Made by a program: the position numbers and the translations under genes. This document shows positions 14,061-25,181 of a stretch of DNA of 32,210 nucleotides, one piece after another. Under the pieces are notes generated by a model. The model was not told the DNA's origin. It made no database searches and worked only from the letters and a program-made list of their open reading frames with translations. Location of the stretch: assembly GCF_000239795.1 (NCBI RefSeq), contig NZ_CAFJ01000747.1, positions 1-32,210 on the forward strand, in the 5' to 3' direction. The number at the start of each line of letters is the position of its first letter. The first letter of the stretch is position 1. This stretch comes from Bradyrhizobium sp. STM 3809. Lineage in GTDB: Bacteria; Pseudomonadota; Alphaproteobacteria; Rhizobiales; Xanthobacteraceae.

Positions 14061-14135
14061 TGGTGCCGGCTGAGGGGATTGAACCCCCGACCTTCGGTTT
14101 ACAAAACCGCTGCTCTACCGCTGAGCTAAGCCGGC
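14061..14135 (-). tRNA. tRNA-Thr(TGT)
   Basis: The minus strand reads a complete tRNA with encoded CCA: acceptor GCCGGCT pairs with AGCCGGC, D-arm GCTCAGCGGTAGAGC, anticodon loop TTTGTAA with anticodon TGT, and T-arm GGGGGTTCAATCCCC. Anticodon TGT reads ACA (Thr). The outermost anticodon-stem pair is a G-A mismatch. Confidence 0.95.
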
Positions 14136-17171: not shown

Positions 17172-17257
17172 GGGGGAGTGTCCCGAGTGGCAAAGGGAGC
17201 TGACTGTAAATCAGCCGCCTCATGGCTTCGCAGGTTCGAGTCCTGCCTCCCCCACCA
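17172..17257 (+). tRNA. tRNA-Tyr(GTA)
   Basis: A class II tRNA of 86 bases with encoded CCA. Acceptor GGGGGAG pairs with CTCCCCC. The anticodon arm reads CTGACTGTAAATCAG with anticodon GTA. A long variable arm (CCGCCTCATGGCTTCG) and T-arm (CAGGTTCGAGTCCTG) complete it. Confidence 0.96.
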
Positions 17258-22552: not shown

Positions 22553-22629
22553 AGCAGAGGGCGGGCCACGGCGCTCAAGACCTGCTATAGAGCGCGCGAT
22601 CCCTGACCCGCTTGCGTGCTTCCGATCCG

Positions 22630-23232
22630 ATGACCGAGCCCCAGTCCGACCTGTTCGAGATGCGCCGCCTCGAGTCGCTTTCCAACACCATCTTCGGTGT
22701 AGCGATGACGCTTCTCGCCTATGACTTGCCAAAACCGAACTTTGCCCAGATGCCGGGTTGGGGTGATCTCGTGCACACCTATTCGGGCCGGCTCGCCGGG
22801 CTGGTGCTCAGCTTCATCATCGCCGGCGTGTTCTGGATCAGCCATCACCGCCGGCTGGCCCGGCAGCCCTATGGCAGCCGCTTCGTGGTGATCCTCAACC
22901 TGTTTTTCCTGCTGTCGATCGTGCTGCTACCGGTCACCAATGGGCTCTACAGCAGCTATCGGCTGTCGAGCGCGGTGGCGGTGCTCTACGGCCTGCATCT
23001 GACCATCATCGCCGCATTGAACGCCGCACTCTGGTGGCTCGGCCTTCCGGCAGGGCGTCATGCCGAGATCGCCGGCGCCGTCTTCCCCGTCATCGTGTTC
23101 GTGCCGGGAATCGCGCTGGCTGCATACGCGCCGGAGTATGTCCAATATTTCTGGATGCTCGGCTTCGGCGGGTTCCTGGCGCGCCGCTTCGTGGCCGCCA
23201 AGCCCGAGAAGGCCATGGACGTTGGCGGATGA
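22630..23232 (+). CDS. TMEM175-family (DUF1211) membrane protein
   Basis: A 200-residue integral membrane protein with six predicted helices (about 18-32, 56-75, 85-106, 112-138, 145-168, 170-187). The first helix carries RRLESLSNTIFGVAMTLLAY, which aligns with the TMEM175 signature R-x3-F-S-D-A-I-x-A-I-x2-T-L-L. Here the usual Phe-Ser-Asp is Leu-Ser-Asn. Bacterial members of this family form tetrameric potassium channels; whether this variant conducts is unknown. The ATG at 22630 is preferred to the TTG at 22612. It stands alone, and its stop abuts the terminator of the opposite-strand rreB-like gene. Confidence 0.82.
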   Translation: MTEPQSDLFEMRRLESLSNTIFGVAMTLLAYDLPKPNFAQMPGWGDLVHTYSGRLAGLVLSFIIAGVFWISHHRRLARQPYGSRFVVILNLFFLLSIVLLPVTNGLYSSYRLSSAVAVLYGLHLTIIAALNAALWWLGLPAGRHAEIAGAVFPVIVFVPGIALAAYAPEYVQYFWMLGFGGFLARRFVAAKPEKAMDVGG

Positions 23233-23238
23233 AGCCGG

Positions 23239-23272
23239 AAAAAAACGCGGCGGGCCATCCGACCCGCCGCGT
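23239..23272 (-). terminator. Rho-independent terminator of rreB-like transcript
   Basis: CCCGCCGCGT (23263-23272) pairs with ACGCGGCGGG (23245-23254) over 10 bp with an 8-base loop. In the minus direction the stem is followed by a T7 tract. The only candidate gene reading into it is the 14-codon ORF at 23386-23430. Confidence 0.9.
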
Positions 23273-23385
23273 CCTGGATCTTGAACTCGCTGGTCCAGGG
23301 CCGAGACCGCCCCGTTGCCGAGCCGCGATGGGCACGATCCGCTGACGAATCACGCGCTCATCGAACCTTGCTCACGAAGAGCCGC

Positions 23386-23430
23386 TCAGCGGGCGATCCC
23401 AGCGAGGTGACAGCGCTTGGTGAAAGACAC
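23386..23430 (-). CDS. rreB: 14-residue rreB-like peptide gene
   Basis: GTG at 23430 opens a 14-codon frame ending TGA at 23386, with product MSFTKRCHLAGIAR. Directly upstream is a Shine-Dalgarno sequence complementary to the 16S rRNA 3' end over 17 bases, counting the first base of the GTG. The peptide length, GTG start and 17-nt SD all agree with rreB (ribosome-regulated expression in Bradyrhizobiaceae), described in 2017 in B. japonicum as a small mRNA whose expression is limited by binding of 30S subunits (from memory). A -10-like TATATT lies upstream and a strong terminator downstream. The transcript predicted here is about 220 bases, longer than the 165 I recall for USDA 110, so the ends may differ. 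Confidence 0.85.
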   Translation of the reverse strand: MSFTKRCHLAGIAR

Positions 23431-23446
23431 TGGATCACCTCCTTTC
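23430..23446 (-). promoter_or_regulatory. Extended 17-nt Shine-Dalgarno sequence
   Basis: On the plus strand this reads CTGGATCACCTCCTTTC, identical to the 3' end of alphaproteobacterial 16S rRNA. The minus-strand mRNA is therefore complementary to the anti-SD over 17 bases, against the usual 4-7. Such pairing should trap 30S subunits and slow escape from the GTG start. Confidence 0.92.
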
Positions 23447-23464
23447 GTTGTTGACGATGAAAGC

Positions 23465-23470
23465 AATATA
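23465..23470 (-). promoter_or_regulatory. Putative -10 box of rreB-like gene
   Basis: Minus-strand TATATT in a GC-rich setting lies 18 bases upstream of the extended SD. It would place the transcript start near 23457. No clear -35 box is seen at 16-18 bases, so this is a tentative call. Confidence 0.4.
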
Positions 23471-23707: not shown

Positions 23708-23781
23708 GCGGGTGTAGCTCAATGGTAGAGCAGCAGCCTTCCAAGCTGAATACGAGGGTTCGATTCCCTTCACCCGCTCCA
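23708..23781 (+). tRNA. tRNA-Gly(TCC)
   Basis: Acceptor GCGGGTG pairs with CACCCGC and CCA is encoded. The D-arm is GCTCAATGGTAGAGC, the anticodon loop CTTCCAA gives anticodon TCC (reads GGA), and the T-arm is AGGGTTCGATTCCCT. Confidence 0.96.
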
Positions 23782-23823: not shown

Positions 23824-24150
23824 TCAATCGCAATGGATCTGTTGCCCGATTCGCCGGCATGACCTGCCGTCGCTGAAGTACGTCGTGTTGCCGATCGTCT
23901 GTGACGACGTGCCGTCGCTGAAATAGGTCTGGTTGCCGATCCGTTGCGAGCTTGTGCCGTCGCTGTTGTATATGGAACGCCCGACCTGCTGCGACGATGA
24001 GCCGTCGCTCCAATAGGTGGTGTCGCCGAGGCGCTGTCCGGACAGGCCGTTGTCGCAATGGACCTGGTTGCCGATCAACTGGCACGTCTCGGCCCGAGCT
24101 GCGGTCATCGCCGCCAGGCCGAGCGCGATCGCGAGACTCATGCGCATCAT
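23824..24150 (-). CDS. Secreted protein of 15-residue tandem repeats
   Basis: A 108-residue exported protein. The signal peptide ends about residue 20 (MTAARAE). The mature part is four 15-residue repeats plus a cap: QRLGDTTYWSDGSSS, QQVGRSIYNSDGTSS, QRIGNQTYFSDGTSS, QTIGNTTYFSDGRSC, then RRIGQQIHCD. A related degenerate unit (CQLIGNQVHCDNGLSG) precedes them. Each unit has the form (R/V/I)-G-x2-x-Y-x-S-D-G, which suggests a small beta-rich stack closed by Cys residues at both ends. GAGG lies seven bases before the ATG at 24150. Repeat proteins with this motif occur in other bacteria; no function is known to me. It is flanked by tRNA-Gly and the LysR gene. Confidence 0.85.
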   Translation of the reverse strand: MMRMSLAIALGLAAMTAARAETCQLIGNQVHCDNGLSGQRLGDTTYWSDGSSSQQVGRSIYNSDGTSSQRIGNQTYFSDGTSSQTIGNTTYFSDGRSCRRIGQQIHCD

Positions 24151-24239
24151 CTTGCATCCTCGTGTGTTGCAGCATTGAATCGCAACCTGGGCGGGCGCGC
24201 AACCTAAAGCGATCCTTGTCGTCCCAGTTTCAAGCGCGG

Positions 24240-25181
24240 CTACGACCTCGTCCTTCGTCTCGCCTCCGCCGCCCGGAACGCCCGCATCTGGCCGCTGAGG
24301 AAGCGCAGCAGGTGGCTGGCGGCCTGCGGCAGCTCGCGGCCGCGGCGGGTGATGACGCAGGCTTCGCTCGCGGCGAGCAGGCGATTGTCGATCGGCACGG
24401 CTTCGAGCGAGCCGTCGGCGAGGTCGGCGGCAATCGAGAACGCCGGCAGCAGCGTCAGGCCGAGGCCGCTCTTGACGAAATGGCGGAGCACGTTGATCGA
24501 GCTGGTGGTGAGCTTCGGCTGAAGCGCGATGTGCTCGGCGGCCTCGGCCATCGCCACGATCTGCCGTGTGCCGTAACTGCGATGCATCAGCCCCAGCGGA
24601 TGGTCGGCGAGCTCGCGCAGGCGCACCGGGCGGCCGGGCCGTGCCAGCGCGTGGTCCGGCGGCACGATCGCGCACAGCGGCTGTCGGCTCGCGGTGGCGA
24701 CGCGGATGCGCGGATCGGCTGACGGGTTGAACACGAGGCCGATGTGGTAGCGGTCCTCGGCGACGGCGTTGACGACCTCGTTGGTGCCGGCGAGGTCGAA
24801 CGCCATGGTCAGGTCCGGATGACGCTGCCAGAACCGGCCGAGCGGACCGGACATGAGGTCGCTGACGAAACCTTCGCCGAGCACGATGTCGACATGGCCG
24901 CGCTTTAGTCCCTGCAACTCACGCAGTTTGGCGACGGTGTCGGCCTGGTCGGCCTGCCACTGCCGGAAGCGCTCGACGAGCAAAGCGCCGGCTGCGGTGG
25001 CGCGGACGCCGCGGCTCAGCCGCTCGACCAGCGTCAGGCCGAGCTCTTTCTCCAGCAGCGCGATCTGGCGGCTGATCACCGAAGCGTTGATGTCGAGCGC
25101 ATCGGCTGCGGCGCGTACCGATCCGAGGCGGACGGTCTCGTGGAGATAATGCAGCCGGTGATGGTCGAGCAGGGCGGTCAC
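24240..25181 (-). CDS. LysR family transcriptional regulator
   Basis: A 313-residue LysR-type regulator. The winged helix-turn-helix is at about residues 8-65 (LHETVRLGSVRAAADALDI, VISRQIALLEKELGLTLVER), followed by the linker helix and the effector-binding domain (95-300, starting HVDIVLGEGFVSDL). The start is a GTG at 25181, with no ATG available. It is divergent from the dehydrogenase/amidohydrolase genes with 109 bases between starts, the classical layout for a LysR regulator of the neighbouring operon. A palindrome in this gap is the probable operator. The inducer is unknown; the operon's substrate or a breakdown product is the natural guess. Confidence 0.93.
   Translation of the reverse strand: MTALLDHHRLHYLHETVRLGSVRAAADALDINASVISRQIALLEKELGLTLVERLSRGVRATAAGALLVERFRQWQADQADTVAKLRELQGLKRGHVDIVLGEGFVSDLMSGPLGRFWQRHPDLTMAFDLAGTNEVVNAVAEDRYHIGLVFNPSADPRIRVATASRQPLCAIVPPDHALARPGRPVRLRELADHPLGLMHRSYGTRQIVAMAEAAEHIALQPKLTTSSINVLRHFVKSGLGLTLLPAFSIAADLADGSLEAVPIDNRLLAASEACVITRRGRELPQAASHLLRFLSGQMRAFRAAEARRRTRS

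Follow-up and report, generated by a model that had tools for sequence, protein, structure and literature searches.

The closest described relatives of the locus analysed here are two bacterial mini-mRNAs. The rreB mRNA of Bradyrhizobiaceae, described in 2017, is said to be a stand-alone transcript of 165 nt in which a 17-nt Shine-Dalgarno (SD) sequence leads into a GTG start codon and a frame of 14 codons, and rreR of the Rhodobacter/Roseobacter lineage reportedly carries an 18-residue frame. The rreB RNA was also reported to sediment with 30S subunits, to be translated weakly, and to be stabilised when its start codon was changed to a stop codon.

A locus of this published kind, an rreB ortholog forming a free-standing unit of about 220 nt, was found on the minus strand of the window, the whole 32,210-nt stretch of DNA from Bradyrhizobium sp. 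STM 3809. Its extended SD sequence, GAAAGGAGGTGATCCAG (23446-23430), is complementary to the 3' end of 16S rRNA over 17 nt; the antisense match that the first-pass annotation had claimed proved exact to the base. The last G of this match is also the first G of a GTG start codon (23430-23428), from which the 14-codon frame noted earlier runs to a TGA stop codon at 23388-23386; the complete frame (23386-23430) encodes the peptide VSFTKRCHLAGIAR, with V read as fMet. Even with three mismatches allowed, the 17-mer had a single match in the window, and 6 of 100 shuffled sequences gave a match under the same conditions. Elsewhere in the 7.3-Mb genome an exact copy occurred only once, as the antisense of the 16S rRNA gene (contig C609), where it continued as ...CAGCC; a reversed-pattern control gave no matches.

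The SD sequence is preceded by the leader ATCGTCAACAAC (23447-23458), which ends in CAACAAC; CAAC recurs 5' of the SD sequence in the related types considered below. The TATATT noted previously is present further upstream, at 23470-23465, as a -10-like box. Of 87 distinct regions upstream of rreB, 85 had a -10-like box at the same distance from the SD sequence; 71 of these boxes read TATATT, and most ended 18-19 nt 5' of the SD sequence. By inference, the transcript was taken to start about 7 nt past the box and to extend for 220 nt (23239-23458, minus strand). It ends in an intrinsic terminator (23239-23271), as the earlier annotation had proposed, with a stem at 23271-23246 that folded with 12 pairs, followed by a T7 run at 23245-23239. 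A simple consensus scan flagged neither the promoter nor the terminator at the rreB locus; the terminator hairpin was recovered by folding. Between the SD sequence and the terminator lie two predicted hairpins, H1 (23404-23441) and H2 (23299-23403), and a 3' element, CCAGCGAG (23286-23293), which is complementary to two other stretches, CGCTG in an H1 arm and CTCGCTGG within the frame. The last six bases of this element were invariant in all 82 distinct rreB sequences. The next gene, a TMEM175-family channel homologue (22612-23232, plus strand), converges on the rreB terminator from the other strand, and a tRNA gene (23708-23778, plus strand) lies on the strand opposite rreB. The window has two further tRNA genes, at 14064-14135 (minus) and 17172-17254 (plus), and a short tandem repeat (23865-23965; period 45, 2.2 copies) inside overlapping frames of both strands, of which the minus-strand frame at 23827-24675 had no Pfam match.

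The name rreB, suggested by the first-pass annotation, was upheld: the SD sequence, start codon, peptide length and genus-wide conservation all agree with what is reported for rreB. In common with that description the locus has the 17-nt SD sequence, GTG, 14 codons, a stand-alone transcript and the same genus-level group; its predicted transcript differs in measuring 220 nt rather than 165 nt. The 14-codon frame was present in all 69 loci from other genomes of the genus, a set comprising one match per genome chosen on SD sequence and GTG, with weaker matches and 16S copies excluded, and conservation extended to Rhodopseudomonas (L121). A lack of this frame in relatives, which the first-pass annotation had named as grounds for refutation, was therefore not observed. 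The frame differs from the 18-residue frame of the Rhodobacter type in having 14 residues. Within the genus, 141 of 146 genomes matched a 19-mer at up to two mismatches, a search that also caught 16S copies. A 21-mer at up to two mismatches was matched in 70 of 119 genomes of the family, where rreB and third-type loci (see below) sat in different genera among the 30 loci fetched, and the 19-mer at up to one mismatch in 49 of 385 genomes of the class. At phylum level, exact GAAAGGAGGTGATCCNNTGTC occurred in 42 of 299 genomes; by a tally made by eye, all 42 were among the 86 genomes of the window's class and none among the 213 outside it. One locus labelled Acidobacteriaceae (L098), from outside the class, has a 104-codon frame and looks like an ordinary gene.

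It had also been proposed that the transcript exceeds the published 165 nt and that its 3' part may hold extra, possibly regulatory, sequence. The greater length was borne out, with 220 nt from inferred start to terminator end, whereas six of the nine rreB transcripts that were folded measured 162-168 nt; the extra sequence is not a separate 3' part and instead extends H2, which in the window includes the end of the frame, the stop codon and the extra apical sequence of the clade. These additional nucleotides, about 49, were placed in the apical part of H2 and are common to L026 and, in shorter form, L047 (L124 and L243 duplicate these two loci, respectively). The span from the SD sequence to CCAGCGAG was 161 nt in the window, 159 nt in L026, which has nearly the same extra sequence, and 140 nt in L047, compared to 107-114 nt in 76 of 82 distinct rreB sequences; L286 and L287 carry other extra sequences, with spans of 132 and 138 nt. 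Since the length difference is confined to one hairpin, 220 nt was not taken as excluding membership of rreB.

The pattern of conservation was then resolved by position. In the class-wide comparison, bases 1-15 of the 16S match hardly change and base 16 is variable. Base 17 can be G, A or T, which yields GTG, ATG or TTG, so that its conservation goes no further than its place at the head of a start codon. Among 30 one-mismatch matches in the class, base 17 was changed in 14 (11 A, 3 T and no C), base 16 in 11 and bases 1-15 in five; in none was the T or G that completes the start codon altered. The phylum search pattern placed no constraint on bases 16 and 17, and the start codon was ATG or GTG at all 42 sites. 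Stop codons were likewise retained in differing forms: TAG in 29, TAA in 29 and TGA in 11 of the 69 genus loci, to which no filter on frame length or peptide was applied, and TAA in 37, TAG in 35 and TGA in 15 of 87 distinct loci chosen by length. Three loci outside the typing filter (L267, L269 and L306) had frames two to three codons longer, and in L306, on a viral contig, the stop codon was lost and the frame was two codons longer.

The encoded peptide behaved differently. The pN/pS ratio of rreB was 1.45 over codons 3-14. It was 4.5 in codons 5-14, where there was one synonymous variant (in 1 of 87 sequences) compared to several non-synonymous ones, and 0.75, from few pairs, in codons 3-4, whose residues change freely. 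These ratios derive from mutually non-independent sequence pairs, and rreB was typed as a 14-residue frame with KRCHLA, which fixes residues 5-10 and the stop position by choice; because of that filter, pN/pS can have been lowered and not raised. The ratio was 0.94 in the rreR type and 0.82 in the third type, both likewise chosen by peptide patterns. In the third type, the distance from the start codon to a CTGG motif was in frame in 77 of the 80 loci (of 103) that had the motif, over five lengths; the other 23 loci were dropped. Judged from these sequence comparisons, initiation, frame and termination are conserved and the peptide is not. Since start, stop and frame are kept and yet pN/pS is 1.45, the rreB peptide looks like a by-product, and an mRNA that acts through 30S subunits would fit the pattern better than a peptide function.

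In the predicted fold, H1 pairs the SD sequence from its sixth base, the start codon and codon 2 with codons 5-9 (23441-23425 with 23417-23404), and in the computed ensemble of the window RNA the SD sequence and start codon were almost fully paired. Most of GAAAG, which faces the 16S terminus, lies outside H1 in the manner of a toehold; in the window RNA, weak pairing of two of these five bases to the leader is possible. Standard H1 pairs occurred in 1147 of 1148 cells over 82 distinct rreB sequences. Changes of the SD sequence within H1 (A12G in five sequences and C15T in six) kept their pairs through G-U. Of the 14 pairs, however, 11 never vary, so that covariation hardly tests H1 and the invariance could be explained by another constraint. 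The pairing would, on this model, account for the frozen KRCHL codons. In H2, the second and third bases of the rreB stop codon covaried with their partners, both sides having changed in 5 and 21 cells, and the covariation score of the three helices was reached by none of 500 shuffles.

Folding at growing lengths suggested a full H1 hairpin once about 55 nt have been made, which suggests that early time is left for 30S binding. The computed duplex of the SD sequence with a bare 16S tail, the ribosome being ignored, was -32.4 kcal/mol, compared to -14.6 to -18.6 kcal/mol for H1 alone in ten sequences; blocking of the SD sequence cost the window RNA a computed 15.9 kcal/mol. With the SD sequence blocked, the CCAGCGAG element paired with the freed CGCTG in nine of ten folds, one of them with only four pairs. 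Pairing of CTCGCTGG with CCAGCGAG was considered as the main rreB fold and rejected; seven of its eight pairs never vary, 4 of 86 sequences break the remaining one, and in those same nine folds the element chose the other partner, CGCTG.

Two further ideas about the SD sequence were discarded. A universal internal anti-SD copy was tested by comparing duplex energies with those of dinucleotide shuffles; p≤0.5 was reached by every one of the 44 rreB and 35 rreR loci, p≤0.05 by only 4 and 14 of them, respectively, and the third type gave no support (p≤0.5 in 56 of 82 loci; mean z -0.41). Compensation between the SD sequence and 16S rRNA was probed in 12 genomes, nine of which carried the variant SD sequences GGTGGTCC or GATTC. 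The 16S end was found in five of the 12, all GGTGGTCC genomes, and read the ordinary GGATCACC in each, which points to a tolerated G-U pair.

A scan of genome contigs for GAAAGGAGGTGATCCAGTGTC gave at least 120 loci, which split mainly into three sorts by peptide. Loci with 14 residues and KRCHLA, from Bradyrhizobium and Rhodopseudomonas, and loci with 18 residues (VSRVILERGVGT and similar), mostly from Rhodobacterales, are those we take to be rreB and rreR. The third type has mostly 20-26 residues, often of the form VSHC...TW..., and occurs in many Rhizobiales, Acetobacteraceae and Caulobacterales. CAAC stood before the SD sequence in 94 of 96 rreB, 23 of 36 rreR-type and 96 of 104 third-type loci, compared to 5% for random 17-mers. 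Among the 48 of 49 class matches with sequence, CAAC preceded the SD sequence in 33 and TC followed the start in 41, a position outside the search pattern; a few of the class matches (L159 and L170, for example) may be ordinary genes. One locus of Microvirga pudoricolor (L068) has an upstream neighbour like that of other Microvirga third-type loci together with a 14-residue frame and rreB-like DNA, and this single locus may be an intermediate linking the two types. Other forms were also seen. Six loci (L029, L097, L182, L260, L319 and L329) constitute a further type whose frames often start xSSE or xSSD and have EQP near the end, and five (L323-L325, L327 and L328) another, with an ATG start and 18 residues beginning MSHGS. 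In L156, L170, L264 and L265 the same extended SD sequence precedes frames of 55-57 codons that resemble secreted small proteins; these are perhaps ordinary genes with strong SD sequences.

An Rfam scan of 17 loci of mixed type placed nine, all of the third type, above the threshold of CC2171 (RF01867), which Rfam files as an sRNA. The window scored 35.6 bits against a threshold of 75 (E = 3.6e-6 for a 321-base stretch) and therefore is not a CC2171 member under the Rfam rule; the locus was nevertheless the best and sole RF01867 match at E≤0.01 in its own genome (E = 1.9e-5). The CC2171 stem CATTGTC/GACAATG just 3' of the start codon was absent from the window sequence, and the RF01867 alignment leaves this stem open. 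Matches at E≤0.01 were found in 25 of 115 genomes of the class, five of them above the cut-off, and in 2 of 14 control genomes (Caulobacter vibrioides and Deinobacterium chartae); one genome (G157) had two. A search of the literature, largely without subscription journals, returned no text tying rreB or rreR to CC2171 and none on the function of rreB or rreR, so that an earlier statement is possible; PMC5082802 does not contain the name rreB.

The types differ in how the SD sequence is hidden. In the rreR type, a local hairpin is predicted to hide the start codon and an element downstream of the frame to hide the SD sequence. The paired cells amounted to 96.4 and 94.7%, compared to 43-57% for both together when the partners were slid; shuffle controls were not exceeded for this pairing, because the SD sequence is fixed. 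The predicted fold of the third type left the SD sequence partly open in three sequences, and its post-start stem paired 6.42 of 7 positions with its own partner compared to 5.98 with swapped partners (highest 6.07) in 101 loci, 66 of which share the same 5' arm. SD hiding is thus a prediction for two of the types and not for all.

Genes adjacent to these loci were compared. Of 55 rreB loci with sufficient flanking sequence, 45 had a tRNA-Gly gene within -900 to +700. The rreR type had one upstream gene family in 36 of 36 loci and, in 30 of 36, a downstream GGQ-bearing RF-1-domain protein of ArfB size (Pfam for L032). Neighbours of the third type were varied; they included RF3 at Microvirga loci and RNase R at Bosea loci (Pfam for L053 and L009). 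A translation-rescue neighbourhood was real in single lineages and absent across lineages, and gene neighbours are not counted as evidence. A phage origin, raised by five viral-contig matches to the 21-mer with rreB- or third-type frames (L305-L309), was also set aside.

The explanation that we favour, tentatively and at somewhat less than even confidence, is that the locus encodes a 30S-dependent mini-mRNA gated by H1 and kept for 30S occupancy or for a ribosome-dependent fate of the RNA, not for its peptide. The SD sequence and start codon would be folded into H1 with codons 5-9, leaving GAAAG outside, an arrangement that is predicted and backed by conservation. The 16S tail of a 30S subunit would pair with GAAAG before displacing H1, and the freed H1 arm would be caught by the downstream CCAGCGAG element. 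The subunit would be held, initiate weakly, make 14 residues and leave. If the 3' tail of 30S opens the hairpin in this way, the RNA would sense or occupy free 30S subunits. The traits reported for rreB, namely sedimentation with 30S, weak translation and stabilisation by a change of start to stop codon, fit such a mechanism. Against it, a pure decoy needs no kept frame unless translation itself matters, and the rreR and third types differ in SD hiding.

An unlikely alternative is that the locus functions through its 14-residue peptide, for which the long SD sequence would only set weak expression. The retention of start, stop and length in 69 of 69 genus loci and the in-frame CTGG distance in the third type (77 of 80 loci, five lengths) would be expected of a coding gene, but the pN/pS ratios (1.45, 0.94 and 0.82) run counter to it, residues vary at codons 3-4, and the peptides differ among types. 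About as improbable is a non-coding RNA with an incidental frame that would act by pairing, either with the 16S tail or with other targets; constraint does lie at the RNA level and Rfam treats the third type as an sRNA, yet start, stops and frame are constrained beyond what pairing alone explains. Those conserved start and stop codons also argue against a role in rRNA maturation or quality control as an antisense RNA to the 16S 3' end, which we regard as less probable again. The nearly fixed 15 nt complementary to the 3' tail, up to helix 45, would suit that role, but the match ends at the mature 16S end and does not run on into the precursor sequence, which was seen in L002. The order of a short frame, hairpins and a terminator is reminiscent of a leader or attenuator of a downstream gene; this reading is strongly disfavoured, since the next gene in the window, the TMEM175 homologue, is convergent on the other strand and the downstream genes differ among lineages.

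The main interest of this mini-mRNA would be its selection pattern, in which start, stop and frame are conserved in an mRNA whose peptide drifts; such a pattern points to translation as a signal rather than as a route to making protein. The locus itself is of a published kind; the selection pattern and the possible link to CC2171 were absent from the literature covered. The hidden SD sequence, the toehold and the absence of peptide selection were added by the present analysis, and the original rreB description may already include them. A broader proposal, which we consider possible but doubtful, is that rreB, rreR and CC2171 make up a single RNA family of Alphaproteobacteria. Its members would be natural switches of a toehold-like kind, triggered by the 3' tail of 16S rRNA and selected for ribosome initiation and termination, not for peptide, and would sense or buffer free 30S subunits, loosely as 6S RNA does for RNA polymerase. 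If joined, these three small curiosities would become a single family that deals with the availability of ribosomes.

Extended SD pairing at small frames is also found in Staphylococcus aureus, although the motifs described in PMC13009471 are a genome-wide initiation feature of a Firmicute and belong to a different RNA. With rreR the window shares the SD module, the start codon and the terminator, the SD sequence and start being predicted to be hidden in both; rreR differs in having 18 residues, an SD sequence masked from downstream of the frame and a start codon masked by a local hairpin. With CC2171 (RF01867) it shares the CAAC leader, the same SD sequence, xTGTC and, in the loci examined, a short frame, whereas the CC2171 frame has mostly 20-26 codons and a long stem follows its start codon. 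Synthetic toehold switches and SD-hiding RNA thermometers likewise combine a hidden SD sequence and start codon with free bases beside a hairpin; the trigger proposed here is instead the ribosome's own 16S tail, and the comparison is one of how the RNAs work, not of membership. Finally, 6S RNA resembles the window RNA in being a small RNA that imitates the ideal ligand of a central machine, which is RNA polymerase for 6S RNA and would be the 30S subunit here, a functional analogy only.
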